Part shown: positions 4,394 to 50,836 of the stretch, piece by piece
Numbering within the stretch: position 1 is the stretch's first letter
How the letters are laid out: each line of letters begins with the position of its first letter
Source of the DNA: Bulleidia extructa W1219
Lineage (GTDB): Bacteria; Bacillota_I; Bacilli_A; Erysipelotrichales; Erysipelotrichaceae
Length of the DNA: 64,000 nucleotides
Direction of reading: 5' to 3'
NCBI RefSeq assembly: GCF_000177375.1
Contig: NZ_ADFR01000016.1
Span: 124,001 to 188,000 of the forward strand
Made by a program: the position numbers and the translations under genes
The notes under the pieces: model-generated
Database searches by the model: none
Told to the model about the DNA's origin: nothing
What the model saw: only the letters and a program-made list of their open reading frames with translations

Positions 4394-5299
4394 AATAATT
4401 TTTTGAACTAAAGGATGACGCACCACATCTCTTCCATCCATGACCACAATAGCAATATCCTGCACATGGGCTAAACGATGTTGAACATCTAACAATCCGG
4501 ACATGACCTGATCCTTTAAATCCACTTGTGAAATATCTCCTGCAATAATCATTTTCGAGTGAAATCCCAATCGAGTTAAGAACATTTTCATTTGGGCACT
4601 AGAAGTGTTTTGAGCTTCATCTAAAATAATATACGCATTTTCTAAAGTTCTTCCTCGCATATAAGCTAAAGGAGCTACTTCTATAATTCCTTTTTCCATC
4701 AGTCTTTCCGTTTGTTCTGAACCTAACATGGCATGTAAAGCATCATATAAAGGAGTTAAATACGGATCAACCTTCTCTTTTAAATCCCCCGGCAAAAAGC
4801 CAAGACTTTCCCCGGCTTCTACTGCCGGTCTTGTTAAAACAATCCGATCAACTTCTCGATTTTTTAAAGCTGTTACTGCCTTTACAACCGCTAAAAAGGT
4901 TTTTCCCGTTCCTGCTGGACCAATAGCTACCACAATGGTGTTATTTTCCATAGCCTTCGCAAAATGATATTGTCCTAAAGTCTTTGGATTGATTCTCTTA
5001 CCTGAAGAAGTCCGACCAATCTGAATCTGATCCACTAAACCCAACCCTGCCTTTTGACTATTTTGAATTAAAAATTGCACTTCTGATAAACTTAAAGAAT
5101 GGTTGATTCGCACAAAACGTACCAACTCTTCCAAGATAGAAAATGCTTCCTCCTTTCCGTCAATAATAAAATGATGATCGCGTAAAATAATCAAGCTTTG
5201 AAAAGCAGATTCAATCTCTTTCAAGTATTGATCTTGTGGTCCAACCAAAATTTGTAAATCTTGTGTACTTAACTCTCTTAAATCAATTGTCTTATTCAT
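4376..5299 (-). CDS. phoH: PhoH-family ATPase
   Basis: A cytoplasmic P-loop ATPase related to helicase cores, thought to act in RNA metabolism together with YbeY. The Walker A GPAGTGKTFLAV lies around residue 128, the Walker B-like IILDEAQN around 225, and IIAGDISQVDL follows. The length of 307 aa fits the PhoH/YbeZ family. It is divergent from the YjbR-like gene with only 36 bp between the two starts. No Shine-Dalgarno precedes the ATG. TGGTACAAT ends only eight bases upstream, so the mRNA probably has almost no leader. A strong terminator follows, so ybeY is not in the same primary transcript. Confidence 0.93.
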   Translation of the reverse strand: MNKTIDLRELSTQDLQILVGPQDQYLKEIESAFQSLIILRDHHFIIDGKEEAFSILEELVRFVRINHSLSLSEVQFLIQNSQKAGLGLVDQIQIGRTSSGKRINPKTLGQYHFAKAMENNTIVVAIGPAGTGKTFLAVVKAVTALKNREVDRIVLTRPAVEAGESLGFLPGDLKEKVDPYLTPLYDALHAMLGSEQTERLMEKGIIEVAPLAYMRGRTLENAYIILDEAQNTSSAQMKMFLTRLGFHSKMIIAGDISQVDLKDQVMSGLLDVQHRLAHVQDIAIVVMDGRDVVRHPLVQKIIEAYEQ

Positions 5300-5307
5300 A
5301 CAACATT

Positions 5308-5329
5308 ATTGTACCATAGGTATTATAAT
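5308..5329. promoter_or_regulatory. Overlapping divergent -10 elements of phoH and the YjbR-like gene
   Basis: The minus strand has TATGGTACAAT, with the TACAAT hexamer at 5308-5313, eight bases before the phoH ATG. The plus strand has TATAAT at 5324-5329, exactly six bases before the ATG at 5336. The two promoters are back to back and neither gene has a Shine-Dalgarno site. Confidence 0.55.
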
Positions 5330-5335
5330 ATTCTT

Positions 5336-6097
5336 ATGAAAAATATCCGTTATTTCATTATTAAACAAGCCGAAAAGAAATTTCATATCCACGCAGAACA
5401 TCCTTTTCGAAGAATTCCAGAAGCTCAAGTTCTTCGTATTCCAAATAAAAAGAATTGGTTTGCACTATTTATGAAAATTCCCAAAAGAAAACTTGGCATA
5501 AATGAAGAGGGATTGGTGGATATTGTAAATTTGAAAAGTGACGAATTTATTTCGGGAACTTTGAGAAGAAATCCCGGTTATTTTCCAGCTTATCATATGA
5601 AAAAATCAAATTGGGTGTCTATTCTTTTGGATGGGACAGTTTTGAGTAACGATATTTTAGAGCTATTAGAAATCAGCTATGACCGTTGTGCTCATCCAAT
5701 TCAAAATAGACCGTTTAAAGATCAAACTTGGATCATTCCTTCCAATCCAAAATACTATGATATTCATCAAGAAATTGAAAACAGCCCTGACCATAGTCTT
5801 CTTTGGCATCAATATCCCAATTTCCATAAGGGAGATACTGTCTTTATTTATGAAACAGCTCCCAGTCAAAAGATCATTTATGAAGGCTATATAAGTGAAG
5901 AAAAGATTCCTTGTTCTGATACAAACGAACCTTTTTCTTCCAAACAAAATATGCTCATTAAAATTCTATTCGACGATCGTTCTCAAGAGTTCACTTTATC
6001 TATGATGAAAGAATATGGGGTAGGCCCTATTCGTGGACCTCGTCATTTACCGGAAGAATTGGTTCAAGATTTGAGAGCTTCTAGAAAAAATCATTAG
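5336..6097 (+). CDS. MmcQ/YjbR-like protein with a C-terminal PUA-like (EVE/ASCH-type) region
   Basis: Residues about 1-125 resemble the YjbR/MmcQ family (CyaY-like fold). Shared elements are VDIVNLKSDEF, RRNPGYFPAYHMKKSNWVSILLDGT and a closing SYD. Residues about 135-253 (WIIPSNPKYYDI, FHKGDTVFIYETAPSQKIIYEGYI) look like an EVE/ASCH-type PUA fold, which in other proteins binds modified bases or RNA; this part is weaker inference. The frame opens at a TTG at 5309, but ATG 5336 is preferred: TATAAT ends six bases before it and no Shine-Dalgarno exists for either start. The protein has no signal peptide or membrane segment. Its function is unknown. Confidence 0.7.
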   Translation: MKNIRYFIIKQAEKKFHIHAEHPFRRIPEAQVLRIPNKKNWFALFMKIPKRKLGINEEGLVDIVNLKSDEFISGTLRRNPGYFPAYHMKKSNWVSILLDGTVLSNDILELLEISYDRCAHPIQNRPFKDQTWIIPSNPKYYDIHQEIENSPDHSLLWHQYPNFHKGDTVFIYETAPSQKIIYEGYISEEKIPCSDTNEPFSSKQNMLIKILFDDRSQEFTLSMMKEYGVGPIRGPRHLPEELVQDLRASRKNH

Positions 6098-42832: not shown

Positions 42833-43558
42833 TCATTTCAATCGCTTTAGCATGATTTCTCTTGCCTTATTTTCCCATTCATCTTCAAGCGGCTTCAATG
42901 CCATCGTCATTCCTTTTCTTTTTAACGCTTTTTGTAAAATAAAGTCGGCCACTTTCGGATTTTTTGGTAACAAAGGACCATGCATATAAGTCGCAATCAC
43001 TTGTTCATTCATAAAGCCTTCAAAAGCACTTTTATATTCATTCCCATGGCCACTCAACACACGACCAAATGGTGTATCCACCTGCTTGGTTTGACCACCA
43101 TGATTTTCAAAGCCAACCACTTGAACCACCTCATTATCCAGTCTTGTTTCAATAGCAATATTACCAATACAACGATGACTTCGATCACTAGCGATTGTGT
43201 AATAAGGGAAAAAACCTAAGCCTTCGACAACTTGACCATCTTGATCCTTGTAGTATTGACCAAAGAGTTGGTATCCCCCACATATCAACAAGAATTGACA
43301 ACCTCGATGCAATAAATTTCGAATCGCTTCTTTCCGACTCAATAAATCTTGATAAATGAAATTTTGTTCCCTATCCGCTCCACCACCCATGAAGAAAATA
43401 TCGACATCTTCCATTTCAATGGTTTGATCCAAGGAACCATTCCTCACTTCCAACTCAATCCCCCTCTTAGCACAACGATACTTGAAGGTTTCCACATTTC
43501 CTTTATCCCCATACAAATCCATCAAATCGTGGTACATCCATAAAAGAACTAGTTTCAT
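42833..43558 (-). CDS. gatD: Lipid II isoglutaminyl synthase, glutaminase subunit GatD
   Basis: Supplies ammonia from glutamine to MurT for amidation of the D-glutamate in lipid II. The class-I-like amidotransferase fold (CobB/CobQ type) has DLYGDKGNVETF at the start, FMGGGADREQ, the catalytic Cys in LLICGGYQLFG, FENHGGQT and the catalytic His in ATYMHGPLL. The length of 241 aa is normal. It overlaps murT by four bases. Confidence 0.94.
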   Translation of the reverse strand: MKLVLLWMYHDLMDLYGDKGNVETFKYRCAKRGIELEVRNGSLDQTIEMEDVDIFFMGGGADREQNFIYQDLLSRKEAIRNLLHRGCQFLLICGGYQLFGQYYKDQDGQVVEGLGFFPYYTIASDRSHRCIGNIAIETRLDNEVVQVVGFENHGGQTKQVDTPFGRVLSGHGNEYKSAFEGFMNEQVIATYMHGPLLPKNPKVADFILQKALKRKGMTMALKPLEDEWENKAREIMLKRLK

Positions 43559-44865
43559 CGCACTACCTTCTTTCTAAGTAAATGGCGAGTTGAATGCAAG
43601 GCTGTATAAGTAGAAAGGACATAAGAAGGACATTCATCTTTTTCTAAAAATTCCAACGCTTCTTCTATCTTTTCTTTTACCATAACTTTTTCTTCTAAGC
43701 CCTCGTATTTTAAACGCAATGCCATATCGTATGCCCTTTTTCCGGAAGTCAAGATATGACGCACATTTCCCTTTAACAACCGTTCAAAATGGGCATCCCA
43801 AATCCAAGAAACATCGCAACCATCTTGATCGTTATCGTTTAAAATAATAACCACATTTTTTTCCTGTTCATCCTTTAAGATATACTTCAACACCTCATTA
43901 GTTCCTGTTGGATTTTTAATCAAATTGATAATACAAGGTTTGGATAATTCAAAAACTTCATTCCTTCCTTCTTTCATTTGAAATGTTTTAAAAACTTGAT
44001 TCGCATGATCCACATCCAATCCTAAATCTCTCATCACCGTTAACACAGCCGCACAATTATAGATGGCATAAATGGTATTCATAAAAGAATGGAAACTTTT
44101 TCCCAAAGCTTGAAAAGTATGGCGATCGTATTGAATAGAATGAACATATACCGTTGGTTGAATTTTACCAAAATCATCCCGCTCACAATAAAAACGACCA
44201 ATATGTGAATATTGATAATAATCATACACCAAACGATTTCCACAACGAGGACAAAATTTTCCTTCACTCGCTTCATCTGTTGTATTTTGTGACACAGCGT
44301 TTTCACAAACCGAATAAAATTGAACCCTAGCTTGTTTCGCCTGATCAGCCAAACGAACCACATTAGGATCATCACCATTTAAAATCAACGTTCCTTTAAA
44401 ATCTCGAATGATTTCTTCCACACGACGAATTATCGTTTCCATTTCTCCAGCACGATCCAATTGATCACGAAAGAAATTATGAACAACCAAATGACTCGGA
44501 TGAAGTGCTTTAAATTGATGATAGAGGGTCAATTCATCCACTTCAATCACACACGCATCCGCTTGAATCCGATAATGCCCATCACTATTCATCGCTAACA
44601 AAGAAGCAATCCCAACATTCAAATTATCTCCTTTGCGATTATGAACAACTTTCAGACCGGATTGATGCAAACTTTCTGCCAGCAAATTAGCTGTCGTCGT
44701 TTTTCCATTAGTACCTGTGACTAAAATGACTATTTTCGGCATTCGAAATTTGGAAATCATTTGCGGATCTAATTTCAATCCCAATGTTCCCGGAAAAGAT
44801 CCCCCTCTGCCCATCTTCTGCAAAACTTTACCCACAACCTGCACCAAGCGTAATGACAACGACAT
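43555..44865 (-). CDS. murT: Lipid II isoglutaminyl synthase, MurT subunit
   Basis: A Mur-ligase-like ATPase that amidates peptidoglycan stem D-Glu. The Walker A VTGTNGKTTTANLLAE is intact. A four-Cys zinc ribbon (FCPRCGNRL ... RFYCERDDF; the last metal ligand is less clear) is inserted around residue 205-230. The C-terminal DUF1727-like part binds GatD. The length of 436 aa is normal. It follows yhaM by one base with AAAGGAG upstream. Amidated stems are typical of Gram-positive walls. Confidence 0.94.
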   Translation of the reverse strand: MSLSLRLVQVVGKVLQKMGRGGSFPGTLGLKLDPQMISKFRMPKIVILVTGTNGKTTTANLLAESLHQSGLKVVHNRKGDNLNVGIASLLAMNSDGHYRIQADACVIEVDELTLYHQFKALHPSHLVVHNFFRDQLDRAGEMETIIRRVEEIIRDFKGTLILNGDDPNVVRLADQAKQARVQFYSVCENAVSQNTTDEASEGKFCPRCGNRLVYDYYQYSHIGRFYCERDDFGKIQPTVYVHSIQYDRHTFQALGKSFHSFMNTIYAIYNCAAVLTVMRDLGLDVDHANQVFKTFQMKEGRNEVFELSKPCIINLIKNPTGTNEVLKYILKDEQEKNVVIILNDNDQDGCDVSWIWDAHFERLLKGNVRHILTSGKRAYDMALRLKYEGLEEKVMVKEKIEEALEFLEKDECPSYVLSTYTALHSTRHLLRKKVVR

Positions 44866-44866
44866 C

Positions 44867-45802
44867 TTATTTCTCCTTTGGTTTATAGAACTGACGATTT
44901 TCCATTGAAAATTGACGACTTGTCCAAGAACCGGGTTCTATTTCTTTTAAAGCTGACTTTAAAGTATTCAAGCGAGCATCAATATTATCCACCAAAGAAA
45001 GAATTTCAGCTTCTTGAATGGCCGGTAAAACAGGTGAACCATATTCCAAGTGACCATGATGACTTAAAATCATATGATGCAATAAAATTGTTTCTTCCTC
45101 TTCTTCTAAATTCAATGCCGTAGCCACCTCTGTTAGCCAACCGTTCGCTAAAGAAATATGTCCTTCCAGCTTACCTGATAAAGTATATTCTGTTGTGATC
45201 GGTCCGGACATTTCCGCCGTTTTTCCCATATCATGAACCAAAGCTCCACTGATCAATAAATCTTTATTCAGTTGCGGATAGAGTTCACATAAAGCTAGAC
45301 AAGTTTTAACCATGCTTAAGCTATGTTCTGATAAACCGCCTAAAAAAGCATGATGAATTTTAGAGGCTGCCGGATAATCAAAATATTTTTGCCCCACTTT
45401 TTGAAACATACCAATTACTAATTTTCTTAAAATACTTGAATCAATTTGATCAATATAAGATTTGACTTCCTTTTTTCTTTCCTCTTCAGAAATGATGGAA
45501 GAAAGCACAAAATCTTCCAAAGCAATTGATTCACTTGGTTGCTCAGCTTGCAAAATACGTCCTTGAAGTTGTCCCTTATAATCTAAGACATCAAAAGTAA
45601 ACTGAATTAATTTTCCATTTTGAATCAGCTTCATATCTTCCGGACTGACATCCCACATTTTACATTCTAAACTGCCGGAACTATCAGCAAGAGTCAAAGA
45701 TAAATAAGGTGCCCCTTTATTGGTCATTCCATTCTTCACTTCTTTAACCAGTAACGGTAACTGATATCTTTCTCCCACTATATATTCACTAATCTTAGGC
45801 AT
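44867..45802 (-). CDS. yhaM: 3'-5' exoribonuclease YhaM
   Basis: An RNase found in Firmicutes. It has an N-terminal OB-fold (residues about 5-95, MTNKGAPYLSLTLADSSG) and an HD phosphohydrolase domain (about 150-280) with GGLSEHSLSMVKT, GALVHDMGK and HHMILSHHG. Of three consecutive ATGs, the last (45802) has the best GGAGG spacing; it overlaps the end of the GT-RecX gene by eight bases. This gives 311 aa, near the family norm. Confidence 0.92.
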   Translation of the reverse strand: MPKISEYIVGERYQLPLLVKEVKNGMTNKGAPYLSLTLADSSGSLECKMWDVSPEDMKLIQNGKLIQFTFDVLDYKGQLQGRILQAEQPSESIALEDFVLSSIISEEERKKEVKSYIDQIDSSILRKLVIGMFQKVGQKYFDYPAASKIHHAFLGGLSEHSLSMVKTCLALCELYPQLNKDLLISGALVHDMGKTAEMSGPITTEYTLSGKLEGHISLANGWLTEVATALNLEEEEETILLHHMILSHHGHLEYGSPVLPAIQEAEILSLVDNIDARLNTLKSALKEIEPGSWTSRQFSMENRQFYKPKEK

Positions 45803-47783
45803 CATCATCCTCCATGTCATTCATGACTGTATAAATATCTTCGTGACTATAACCTTGACTTAGGCAATAGCGATAAATTCGATTACGTAAATCGGATCCT
45901 TGACTCTTAAAAGCGTATCGTTTCTTGGCTTGATTGGCACATTTACGCAAATGTTCCAACTCCTTCGCATCCACTTTACTAAAATCCAATTGATTTAAAA
46001 CACCATCAATCACTTCATTTGTATAGCCCCTTTGATGAAGTCTCATACGGATGGAATCCTTTGTCTTCCTTACAGAATATGACGATGATTTCAGGACTTT
46101 TTTAGCGTATTCCAACGCAAAATTTTCTTCCTGTTCTTCTTTTTGCGATAAAACTTTTTGAATGAGATACTCTGAAATTCCCTTTTTAGCCAAACGACGA
46201 CGAACCTCATTTTCTCCAAGCAAAGACGCAAACAAAGAATGAAGGTGTTCTCTGGCGTATCGTTCATCATTTAAATAGCCCTTTTCTTTTAAGGATTGAA
46301 TGATGATTCGAACGCTCTCCAAAGAACAAGAAGTATTCTGAGTTAACCAGTCTACAATCTCTTTTTGGCTTCGATCTTTGATGGCTAATTTTCTCAAACA
46401 AGCTTGATAGGCCGCTGTTTGGACTTCTTTTGTTTTTAAAATGTCATAGACATATCGACCAAAAAAACCATGGGCTCTTAAGCCATACTCATAATAATCA
46501 TCTACTGATACTTTTAGACGCAATTCCTCTTGATCGCTCGTTCTTAAATACAACTCCACAATCGAATCCTTGGTTCGCATACGTAATATTTCATATTGAA
46601 TTCGATTTGAATCAATGGCTCGACTATAGACATCCAAGACCTTTGTATAAAAGGTTTCTGCATCAAACGGTTTTGACACTTCCACGCAACGTTTTCGATA
46701 TTGCTCGTATTGGTTTAAATCCATTTTCTCAAACTCTAAAATAGAAGTAGCCAAACTTTCTTCATCCGCAAAGAACCACCCTGTTGCACCGGGAATCAGT
46801 AAATGATCTAAAACTTCATCTTTTCTAGCAAATAAAGGTAATCCTGAAGATAGAGCTTCAATAAATGTCATTCCTTGTGTTTCTGATAAAGAAGCTGACA
46901 CAAACGCTTCACTACTGCGATATAAATCCGGAACTATTTCGCGTGAAATAGGCCCCGTTATAATAACGTCTTTTTCCAGTCCTTGCTTCGCAACTAGTTT
47001 TTGAAGACTTTCTAAATCAGGCCCACCACCAACAATCACCAACTGACTTTTCGCTCCTTTTTTAAGAGCTGTTTGATATCCAGCAATCACCAAATCTAAA
47101 GACTTTTCCTTTGCTAAACGTCCCACATAAATAATAATAGAACGGTCTAAAGATAATCCATATTTTCGACGGGTTTCCTGTTTTTGTTCTTGGCTAAACT
47201 CCTCGGGATTAAAACGATCTAAAGAAAGCCCCGTTGGAATAACCGTTAATTTTCTCTGGATTTCATACTTCTCCAACATTTCTTTGGTTTTAATGGAAGG
47301 GGTAATCACTTCTTGTGAACTTTCCCCATATAGTTTTGACAATTTAGCAACCGCCATTTTGCCAACTTCATCCACTGCTTTCGAATTAAGCAAGTTCACA
47401 TAATGGGTATAATCTTCATAAGTCGTATGATAAGTTGATACCAAAGGAATATTCAAATGTTTGGCACAAATACGAGCAAAAATACCCACTCCAAATTCTG
47501 TTTGAGCATGAATGATTTGTAAATTTAAAGAACGAATCACTTCTAAAGCTTGCGAATGAAAAGGAGAAGTCATTACATAACCGTATAAAAATTTTAACTG
47601 AATCCCATTCAGACGCAATACGTCGTGGCTTTCATTCCATTCCATACTTTCTTTTCCACGATAGGTTGTAACCACGTAAACCTCATGACCATGTCTTTTG
47701 AGTTCTTGAAAAAGGATATAGGTTGAATTCGCTACCCCATTAATTTCCGGTACAAAAGTATCTGAAAATAACCCAATTTTCAT
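45795..47783 (-). CDS. recX: GT4 glycolipid glycosyltransferase fused to full-length RecX
   Basis: Residues 1 to about 390 are a family-4 glycosyltransferase of the diacylglycerol glucosyltransferase (LafA-like) type. Motifs include GLFSDTFVPEINGVANSTY, STYHTTYEDYTHY, IYVGRLAKEKSLDLVI and the EX7E-type SLSETQGMTFIEALSSGLP. Residues about 402-662 match a complete RecX: a leading beta-rich part (LRLKVSVDDYYEYGL), three-helix repeats with RSQKEIVDWL, LKEKGYLNDERYAREHL and RRRLAKKGI. RecX normally is a separate RecA modulator. The frame is open throughout and the internal Met near residue 402 has no Shine-Dalgarno, so a true fusion is likely. It starts 12 bp after the flippase-like gene. Confidence 0.88.
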   Translation of the reverse strand: MKIGLFSDTFVPEINGVANSTYILFQELKRHGHEVYVVTTYRGKESMEWNESHDVLRLNGIQLKFLYGYVMTSPFHSQALEVIRSLNLQIIHAQTEFGVGIFARICAKHLNIPLVSTYHTTYEDYTHYVNLLNSKAVDEVGKMAVAKLSKLYGESSQEVITPSIKTKEMLEKYEIQRKLTVIPTGLSLDRFNPEEFSQEQKQETRRKYGLSLDRSIIIYVGRLAKEKSLDLVIAGYQTALKKGAKSQLVIVGGGPDLESLQKLVAKQGLEKDVIITGPISREIVPDLYRSSEAFVSASLSETQGMTFIEALSSGLPLFARKDEVLDHLLIPGATGWFFADEESLATSILEFEKMDLNQYEQYRKRCVEVSKPFDAETFYTKVLDVYSRAIDSNRIQYEILRMRTKDSIVELYLRTSDQEELRLKVSVDDYYEYGLRAHGFFGRYVYDILKTKEVQTAAYQACLRKLAIKDRSQKEIVDWLTQNTSCSLESVRIIIQSLKEKGYLNDERYAREHLHSLFASLLGENEVRRRLAKKGISEYLIQKVLSQKEEQEENFALEYAKKVLKSSSYSVRKTKDSIRMRLHQRGYTNEVIDGVLNQLDFSKVDAKELEHLRKCANQAKKRYAFKSQGSDLRNRIYRYCLSQGYSHEDIYTVMNDMEDDDA

Positions 47784-47795
47784 GAAAGTCCCCTC

Positions 47796-48827
47796 CTATT
47801 CGGTTTTCATTTTCACAATAAAAAACACCATTGCTCCAATGATTAAAGTTAAATAAAAAGTTGATAAACGCCATAAAATCATAATTGATGTGGCTTGCGC
47901 TGAAGTGAAAATAGTGGAAAACATCAATACAAAGGTTGCTTCTGTTCCCCCACTACTTCCAGGCATAGGTAAAAATGCATTCACCATGGCCACAAAAGAA
48001 CTCAAAGCTATCATATCTAAAATAGTTTTCATAGTGAATGGAATATGTAAGGCCCAAGCACAAAGAACAGGAACAGAATAAATAATTAAAAAGCGCATAA
48101 GATTAATACTGACTAATTGATACACCAAACGATGATTTTGATGAAGCGTCGTGATTTCCTGAGCCAAATTCTCTAAAGTCTTATCTAAACGACTCAAAGA
48201 AGTTTTGACATCCTTTACCAGATGCAATTTAGCTCCTATATAGATTCCTTTAGTTGTGAGCCATGTATAAAACTTTTTAGATTTCGCCAACAAAATCAAG
48301 AACATAATAATCCCCAAGGCAATCGCAAATCCGCCTAAAACAATCGCAAAAAAAGAAGAATAAGTGCGATAAAAATAACCAAAACGCATGAGTAATAAAG
48401 CCAAGACAACGGCAATCATGGTTCCCTGATAAACAATAAAATCAAGCCAAAGGACACCAACAGCCCTGGAAACAGAAACACCTTGTTTACGGAAAACATA
48501 AAGTTGAGCCACCTGTCCACCTGAAGCTCCTGGTGTAATGTTATTGAAAAGACCCGCTATATAAGCATTCACAAAACCTTCTTTAAAATGATAGTTTTTG
48601 TAATTAGCTTGTACTTCTAAAGCCAAGCCCTTCCCTAACAGTGCCTTTTCTAACACCAATAAAACCACTAATAACCATAAAATCCAAGGATTAGCGGCTT
48701 TTAAATGATTAATCACATCTTGGTAATGATCTTTTAAAGTCATATAAAACACAAAACCCGTCAGCGCAAAAACTAAAAAAATATTAAATACCGTATTTTT
48801 AAACAGCTTTTTCAGAAATTTTAGCAT
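47796..48827 (-). CDS. Lysylphosphatidylglycerol synthase/UPF0104-type membrane protein
   Basis: An integral membrane protein with about eight helices, related to the flippase domain of MprF. Examples are FLVFALTGFVFYMTLKDHY and WILWLLVVLLVLEKALLG. The conserved loops NNITPGASGGQVAQLYVFRKQG and FLPMPGSSGGTEATFVLMF are also present. The length of 343 aa is normal. It probably moves or accommodates glycolipids in the membrane, in line with the adjacent glycolipid transferase; this is inference. No Shine-Dalgarno precedes the ATG; TATAAT ends exactly six bases upstream, so the transcript is probably leaderless. Confidence 0.88.
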   Translation of the reverse strand: MLKFLKKLFKNTVFNIFLVFALTGFVFYMTLKDHYQDVINHLKAANPWILWLLVVLLVLEKALLGKGLALEVQANYKNYHFKEGFVNAYIAGLFNNITPGASGGQVAQLYVFRKQGVSVSRAVGVLWLDFIVYQGTMIAVVLALLLMRFGYFYRTYSSFFAIVLGGFAIALGIIMFLILLAKSKKFYTWLTTKGIYIGAKLHLVKDVKTSLSRLDKTLENLAQEITTLHQNHRLVYQLVSINLMRFLIIYSVPVLCAWALHIPFTMKTILDMIALSSFVAMVNAFLPMPGSSGGTEATFVLMFSTIFTSAQATSIMILWRLSTFYLTLIIGAMVFFIVKMKTE

Positions 48828-48984: not shown

Positions 48985-49269
48985 TTACTTGTTAAATAAT
49001 AAAGTGACAATCAATAATAAAATTCCAATCATTGAAACTATTAAATAATTCTTTTTTTCTTGAAAAAAATAGTAGCCCAATCCACCACCGATTGAAAATA
49101 AGATAGGTAATCCAACAGCCAATATTTTAGGATATGTATTAGATGGATTCCCTGAAAAATCTATCTGCACTGTCACCACTTCCGGCAAGACAATATAACT
49201 ATAGATACCCAAGACAACTGATATGATCACAATCACTCCTACTATCACTTTTTTCTTCATCTCCATCAT
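48985..49269 (-). CDS. Small membrane protein (DUF1648-like)
   Basis: A 94-aa protein with three hydrophobic segments (VIVGVIVIISVVLGIYSYIV; YPKILAVGLPILFSIGGGLGYYF; YLIVSMIGILLLIVTLLF). Between the first two lies a short VTVQIDFSGNPSNTYPK loop resembling DUF1648/SdpI-type proteins. The frame opens at 49323, but ATG 49269 has AAAGG at suitable spacing. Function is unknown; SdpI relatives act in immunity to a secreted toxin, but nothing here supports that directly. It may be cut short at its N-terminal side, as the upstream 18 codons also read protein-like. Confidence 0.5.
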   Translation of the reverse strand: MMEMKKKVIVGVIVIISVVLGIYSYIVLPEVVTVQIDFSGNPSNTYPKILAVGLPILFSIGGGLGYYFFQEKKNYLIVSMIGILLLIVTLLFNK

Positions 49270-49383
49270 TGATACCTGCCTTTCAACCATTTCATACAAT
49301 ACCCAAGCCATCTCCACTATCATTTTTATCCCATGATCTTATTTTTTTAAACTGAAACATGATTTTATATTTTCACGACTCCA

Positions 49384-49831: not shown

Positions 49832-50836
49832 TTACTGCTTCCATACGGATTCATAGACTTCTTTTAATTGTTCACCGATTTTTTCGATTTGCCTTTCTTT
49901 AGCCACCAAATAACCTTGTTCTGAAAGATCAGGCAATTGATGTTCTACAATACCTTGAAGCTTTTCTATAAACTCTCCATTATCTTTCGCTAAATACGCA
50001 TTTTGACCATCCTTCAGCCAAGGATGATAACAACCAATATCTCTTAAAAGAACTGATTGTTTTGAAGCCAACGCCTCTAGCACTACAATGCCTTCCGTTT
50101 CTTCATAACTAGGAAAGAAAAAACAATCCGCATCATGATACGCTCCTTCAATCAACGCTCCTTTCACATAACCGGGAAAAAGACAATTCTTAGGAGCCTC
50201 TTGAATAGCTAAAGTAATTTCCGGTGGAATAATCAGCTTAGAAATATCACCAAACCAAATGAAGGTATATTCCGGCAATCGTTTCGCCACTTCAATAAAA
50301 TCAAGAATACCCTTTCGCTTAAACAACAATCCCACTCCCATGACTACTTTTTGATTGGGTTGTATATAAAAATAATCACGATATAATTGGATCTTTTGTT
50401 TATCATAAGCATAGCGATTTAAATCAATCCCATTAGAAATCGCATAAATTTTTTGTGTTAATCCATACCCTTCCAACAAAGATTTCGAATAAGGAGTGGG
50501 CGTAATAATGGCATCAGCCTGTTTGTACAAATCCACCAAACGAATCTTCACAAATGGGGCAATCATATTGGAAAAAGTAAACGAATTACGGAAATCTTCC
50601 ATCGTACTATGGGCATGATAGATGACTTTCTTTCCTCTTTTTTTAGCATGATGAATGATCGCATCTGAATTCATTCCCCAAGTATTAATATGTAAAATAT
50701 CATAGTCATCTGCCCAAGGATCAGTGGTATACTCCACTCCTTGTGAACTAAGAGCTTTCATTTGATGCTGAAGAGCCCGACCAATTCCGGACTTTGCCAA
50801 AGCATCTTGCCCTTCAAAGTATAGTAAAACTTTCAT
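49832..50836 (-). CDS. GT4 glycosyltransferase, LafB/CpoA-like glycolipid synthase
   Basis: Probably adds the second sugar to monoglucosyl-diacylglycerol, forming the lipid anchor of lipoteichoic-acid-type polymers. The start MKVLLYFEGQDALAKSGIGRALQHQMKAL, with the ILHINTWG region, is typical of LafB/CpoA. The GT4 donor-site signature is FFFPSYEETEGIVVLEALA. The length of 334 aa is normal. Its ATG overlaps the stop of the V-ATPase subunit D gene by four bases, so it is translationally coupled to the ATPase operon. The presumed first-step enzyme is the GT-RecX fusion about 2 kb away. The sugar transferred is not certain. Confidence 0.82.
   Translation of the reverse strand: MKVLLYFEGQDALAKSGIGRALQHQMKALSSQGVEYTTDPWADDYDILHINTWGMNSDAIIHHAKKRGKKVIYHAHSTMEDFRNSFTFSNMIAPFVKIRLVDLYKQADAIITPTPYSKSLLEGYGLTQKIYAISNGIDLNRYAYDKQKIQLYRDYFYIQPNQKVVMGVGLLFKRKGILDFIEVAKRLPEYTFIWFGDISKLIIPPEITLAIQEAPKNCLFPGYVKGALIEGAYHDADCFFFPSYEETEGIVVLEALASKQSVLLRDIGCYHPWLKDGQNAYLAKDNGEFIEKLQGIVEHQLPDLSEQGYLVAKERQIEKIGEQLKEVYESVWKQ

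Follow-up and report, generated by a model that had tools for sequence, protein, structure and literature searches.

An in-frame fusion of an Mgs-like glycosyltransferase and RecX in Bulleidia extructa and other Erysipelotrichales

In Bulleidia extructa W1219 a single gene joins a glycolipid glycosyltransferase of the GT4 type to the RecA regulator RecX, which raises the question of whether membrane lipid synthesis is linked here to DNA repair, as an earlier note on this DNA had suggested, or whether two neighbouring genes have run together. The window analyzed is a stretch of 64,000 nucleotides, and the gene lies on its minus strand with the coordinates and layout first described for it (Table 1). 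It forms one frame of 662 codons without an internal stop and without N or ambiguous bases, is preceded by a strong Shine-Dalgarno (SD) sequence (AGGAGGGG) upstream of the start codon of the glycosyltransferase (GT) half, and has a similar G + C content in both halves (0.366 and 0.367). In an AlphaFold2 model of the whole protein, for which 43 homologues were supplied (pLDDT 87.9, pTM 0.65), both folds were confident but the placement of the GT domain relative to the RecX domain was not, and the Foldseek matches of this model were GT-B enzymes, among them MshA, BshA, and PimB'. Judged from its sequence, the gene encodes a genuine two-domain protein consisting of a GT4 glycosyltransferase and a full-length RecX of the Firmicutes type.

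Table 1. Features of the fused gene and its surroundings (positions within the window).
Feature	Position	Strand	Remarks
Fused mgs-recX gene	45795..47783	minus	662 aa, ATG start, SD AGGAGGGG, TAA stop
GT half, residues 1–392	46608..47783	minus	GT4, GT-B fold, EX7E motif
Junction	46596..46610	minus	last GT helix (375–394) to first RecX strand (396–405); no conserved start codon with SD
RecX half, residues 395–662 and stop	45795..46601	minus	N-terminal beta domain and three three-helix repeats
yhaM (3'-5' exoribonuclease YhaM-like)	44867..45802	minus	probable ATG at 45802, SD GGAGG inside recX
murT and gatD (lipid II amidation)	42833..44865	minus	downstream of yhaM
Flippase-like membrane protein (LPG_synthase_TM)	47796..48827	minus	immediately upstream of fused gene
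IagA/BgsA-type glycolipid glycosyltransferase	49832..50836	minus	501 bits, cut-off of 460 exceeded

The GT half belongs to the GT4 enzymes by its GT-B fold, its Pfam domains Glyco_transf_4 (residues 14–190) and Glycos_transf_1 (residues 201–364), both above the cut-off, and an EX7E motif (E301...E309) that is invariant across 44 homologues. The best curated match of residues 1–396 was the alpha-monoglucosyldiacylglycerol synthase NF049988 (NCBIfam), matched at full length with 249.8 bits; because this is below the equivalog cut-off of 400 bits, the GT half is named only Mgs-like here, according to best match and context. It shares with Mgs NF049988 the GT4 domains, the EX7E motif, and the proximity to genes for a flippase-like protein and an IagA/BgsA glycolipid enzyme, but differs from it in the score, in the RecX at its C-terminus, and in that its acceptor and donor are predicted. 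Since the flippase-like protein and an IagA/BgsA enzyme scoring above its cut-off are neighbours, a role in glucolipid synthesis fits the GT half. Its most likely product is monoglucosyl-diacylglycerol, which would be formed on the inner side of the membrane and supplied to the adjoining IagA-type enzyme and flippase.

Within the RecX half, the Pfam repeats RecX_HTH1, HTH2, and HTH3 lie inside residues 458–654 and scored 51.9, 32.3, and 34.5 bits, all above the gathering score of 26 each, and the N-terminal beta domain of long RecX proteins is present at about residues 395–442. When modelled alone this half reached a pLDDT of 94.7, its best six PDB matches were all RecX, and the model and the sequence profile matched the solved RecX structures 3d5l, 3e3v, 3c1d, and 3dfg, with TM-scores of the fold of 0.82–0.85 normalized to the solved chains. 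RecX PRK14135 (NCBIfam) was the best curated match of residues 447–658 with 101 bits, under its equivalog cut-off of 240 bits, a value that no genome in the class sample (139 genomes) attained either. The view that both domains are complete thus held, as did the in-frame fusion itself. In length, repeats, and N-terminal beta domain the RecX half equals the long Firmicutes RecX (B. subtilis RecX/YfhG, 264 aa, PMC3527212; 3d5l, 3e3v); unlike the free RecX of B. subtilis, it follows about 392 glycosyltransferase residues and shows no start of its own. A search of the B. extructa genome for a second, free RecX found none besides the fused copy, and recA is present on another contig. In B. subtilis, where RecX limits RecA threads, RecX-YFP is seen together with RecA in damage foci (PMC3527212); a partner at one end need therefore not keep RecX from RecA. 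The most likely role of the RecX half is to restrict RecA filaments, which it would do independently of the GT half.

The same two-domain layout, which the earlier note had proposed to look for elsewhere, extends across an entire order of bacteria from the gut and the mouth; the join is real and old. A homologue was present in all 60 relatives, in most of them as one unbroken frame over both halves. In the order Erysipelotrichales a RecX match was obtained in 236 of 245 genomes, where many of the sampled genomes are metagenome-assembled genomes (MAGs) and absence from an incomplete genome is no proof of loss. Among the 150 of these 236 matches that were listed, 132 lay inside open frames of 597–794 aa; of the remaining 18, two (G020, G165) are fused genes truncated by contig ends, which leaves 16 that are not fused. 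A scan of named genomes detected the fusion in Lactimicrobium massiliense, Dielma fastidiosa, Amedibacillus dolichus, Merdibacter massiliensis, and Breznakia pachnodae as well as in many MAGs of Erysipelotrichaceae and Solobacterium, and in a sample of 392 genomes from the phylum (the rows shown all belonging to the same class) frames with both halves occurred only in the two families of the order. The GT4 and HTH3 domains were matched in all 44 aligned homologues, HTH1 in 41, and HTH2 in 29. Pairwise dN/dS ratios ranged from 0.04 to 0.28 across both halves, with values of 0.067 (GT) and 0.138 (RecX) between the window and its nearest relative, and according to these ratios both halves are under purifying selection.

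Some loci of unusual appearance were also encountered. The 700–870 extra bases in the tblastn spans of L064, L068–L070, L072, L073, and L103 do not stem from an insertion between the two halves, as the span also covers a GT paralogue upstream and the fused frame itself is of normal length. In L101 and L102 a relative of the GT half is encoded separately, and the gene after it is not recX but one that, from its sequence, is taken to encode triosephosphate isomerase. Two genomes of about 2.3 Mb that are 98–99% complete (G079, G094) yielded neither first-look GT4 candidates nor RecX, which is unusual in this order and perhaps explained by a different genetic code, by mis-binning, or by a true loss of the genes.

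In families f8, f10, and f19, which belong to other orders, mgs and recX are separate adjoining genes in a run of flippase, mgs, recX, and yhaM. Seven of eight loci from f8 and f19 contain a GTG with an SD-like GGAGG or GAGGT in the recX frame, located inside mgs 23 nt before its end, and an overlapping ATG with SD is present in two of four f10 loci; we infer that these codons are the true recX starts of the outgroups. As no stop interrupts the recX frame where it passes the end of mgs, a single small indel within this overlap would suffice to join the two genes. The ancestor probably possessed this old gene run, with recX starting inside the end of mgs from its own Shine-Dalgarno sequence; a small indel in the overlap, presumably only one, would have placed recX in frame with mgs, whereupon the separate recX start would have been lost. 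The fusion would thereby have replaced the translational coupling of the overlapping pair and then persisted with recX and mgs expression tied one-to-one, retained presumably by drift or for co-expression and not because the activities need each other. The outgroup arrangement resembles the mycobacterial recA-recX pair, in which recX likewise overlaps the preceding gene and is co-transcribed (PMC3062782), although the partner there is an expected one, recA, and the two products remain separate. The junction is nearly constant in length among members (38–42 residues from Y386 to K424) and that of family f2 (L109) aligns by eye with it, which suggests one fusion event; a single event is therefore favoured over two, but the tree branch uniting f1 and f2, the two families of the order, is weak (SH-aLRT 70) in these quick searches, with outgroup RecX rows on long branches. 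The alternative description in the earlier note, a chance fusion, is thus not quite apt: a joining of two genes it is, but of neighbours in an old conserved run, and it was kept across the order.

The halves have come apart again repeatedly. Adjoining separate mgs and recX genes with overlapping frames were found in L086, L088/L106 (where stop and start overlap as ATGA), L089, L107, and L105. In both trees the clade of L086, L088, and L089 was nested deep among the fused genes, and its placement outside them was rejected by the AU test (p-AU 0.001), which identifies its split pairs as products of later re-splitting. L093 also looks split, but the start of its RecX is missing and the locus may be damaged or mis-assembled. 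RecX without a GT half occurs in part of genus g19 (L150–L155) and in L141, L146, L147, L148, and L170, the gene order in L141 being flippase, recX, and yhaM. In-frame decayed GT stubs of about 118 residues (L143, about 4764–5918, minus strand, in a single-contig genome) and about 185 residues (L108, 3440–4822, plus strand) precede RecX with weak scores but in the right place, and appear to be intermediate stages in the loss of the GT half. A close Mgs or IagA was sought elsewhere in the genomes with GT-less RecX and was not found in most of them, so that the glucolipid pathway was seemingly abandoned while RecX was kept. Three genomes (G163, G191, G208) encode a distant Mgs-like enzyme elsewhere; that of G163 (L181, 3780–5663, minus strand) is a GT4 protein of 628 aa with 33% identity and a C-terminal VTT (DedA-type membrane) domain, adjoins an IagA homologue, and perhaps substitutes for the GT half that recX lacks in this genome. 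In family f8, GT-containing frames of some 650 aa (G311, G327, G347, G538, G589) may be similar. Conversely, G147 has a GT of 402 aa that ends just past the GT fold, and no RecX match. A minimum of eight changes between fused and not fused was counted on a quick RecX tree of the order.

Because relatives re-split the halves or lost one of them, the fusion looks like overlapping neighbours that ran together, and since losses and re-splits occurred in every direction, neither half needs the other and a necessary link from lipid synthesis to DNA repair is not supported. The favoured explanation, with a probability of roughly 77%, is a neutral or co-expression fusion of two overlapping neighbour genes whose products work independently. 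Its persistence over the order and many genera may, however, exceed what a purely neutral fusion would last. A functional coupling, in which the membrane-bound GT half would hold RecX at the membrane, off RecA, and free or activate it depending on the state of the lipids, thereby coordinating envelope synthesis with recombination, would agree with the conservation of both the fusion within the order and the mgs-recX adjacency outside it. The related glycolipid synthase MG517 of Mycoplasma uses an amphipathic helix to bind the membrane (PMC6506492), a tether would matter for a protein that acts on the nucleoid as RecX-YFP does in B. subtilis (PMC3527212), and in the AlphaFold2 model the last GT helix leads directly into the first RecX strand through a very short linker. 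The re-split pairs, the retention of RecX after loss of GT and IagA and of the GT after loss of RecX, and the uncertain placement of the two domains nevertheless make such a coupling unlikely. Given the membrane binding of MG517, RecX of the fused protein may still be held at the membrane as a possible consequence of the fusion; it is rather doubtful that RecX is membrane-anchored order-wide, with control of RecA filaments taking place at or being limited by the membrane and scaling with the level of the glucolipid enzyme.

In another reading two products would still be made, with RecX freed by proteolysis or weak internal initiation and the fused frame representing mere genetic linkage. Each fold is complete by itself, and the junction of the window contains a weak AAGGA before an in-frame GTG at residue 409. 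This is the sole SD-like sequence there and it is not conserved in relatives, in accordance with the initial impression that no internal start is recognizable. A conserved internal start with SD was absent from all 71 fused genes searched, as opposed to seven of eight outgroup pairs of f8 and f19, and start codons with SD were at background level at the junction of fused genes (9 of 269, compared to 68 of 1,455 inside the GT), so that an internal RecX start is rejected as a conserved feature and the separate recX start seems lost. Together with the confidently modelled junction that offers no loose loop, this renders two products quite improbable. A sequencing or assembly artefact joining two genes can be dismissed, as unbroken frames of about 660–690 aa occur in many independently sequenced homologues, including the single-contig genomes G037, G041, and G066.

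The fusion preferred here, of overlapping neighbours with independent products, is a well-sampled case in which two proteins without an obvious common job were fused and afterwards split again or deprived of one domain several times over, and in which the separate overlapping pair survives in outgroups. It cautions against inferring function from fusion alone ("Rosetta stone" logic), bears on the annotation of RecX and of the glycolipid synthase throughout the Erysipelotrichales, and, as a RecA regulator joined to what is probably a membrane enzyme, lends itself to testing. In the open literature searched, no publication describing a GT-RecX fusion was found; the architecture may already be recorded, uncommented, in domain databases.

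The probable ATG of yhaM overlaps the end of the fused gene (yhaM region, 44867–45820), and the adjacency of recX and yhaM persists even in lineages without the GT; the literature search yielded no paper that connects the function of RecX with that of YhaM. The genes murT and gatD follow yhaM in most loci of the genus of the window. Between the flippase and IagA genes, a small protein with a marginal match to DUF1648 is encoded at 48985–49323 (minus strand).
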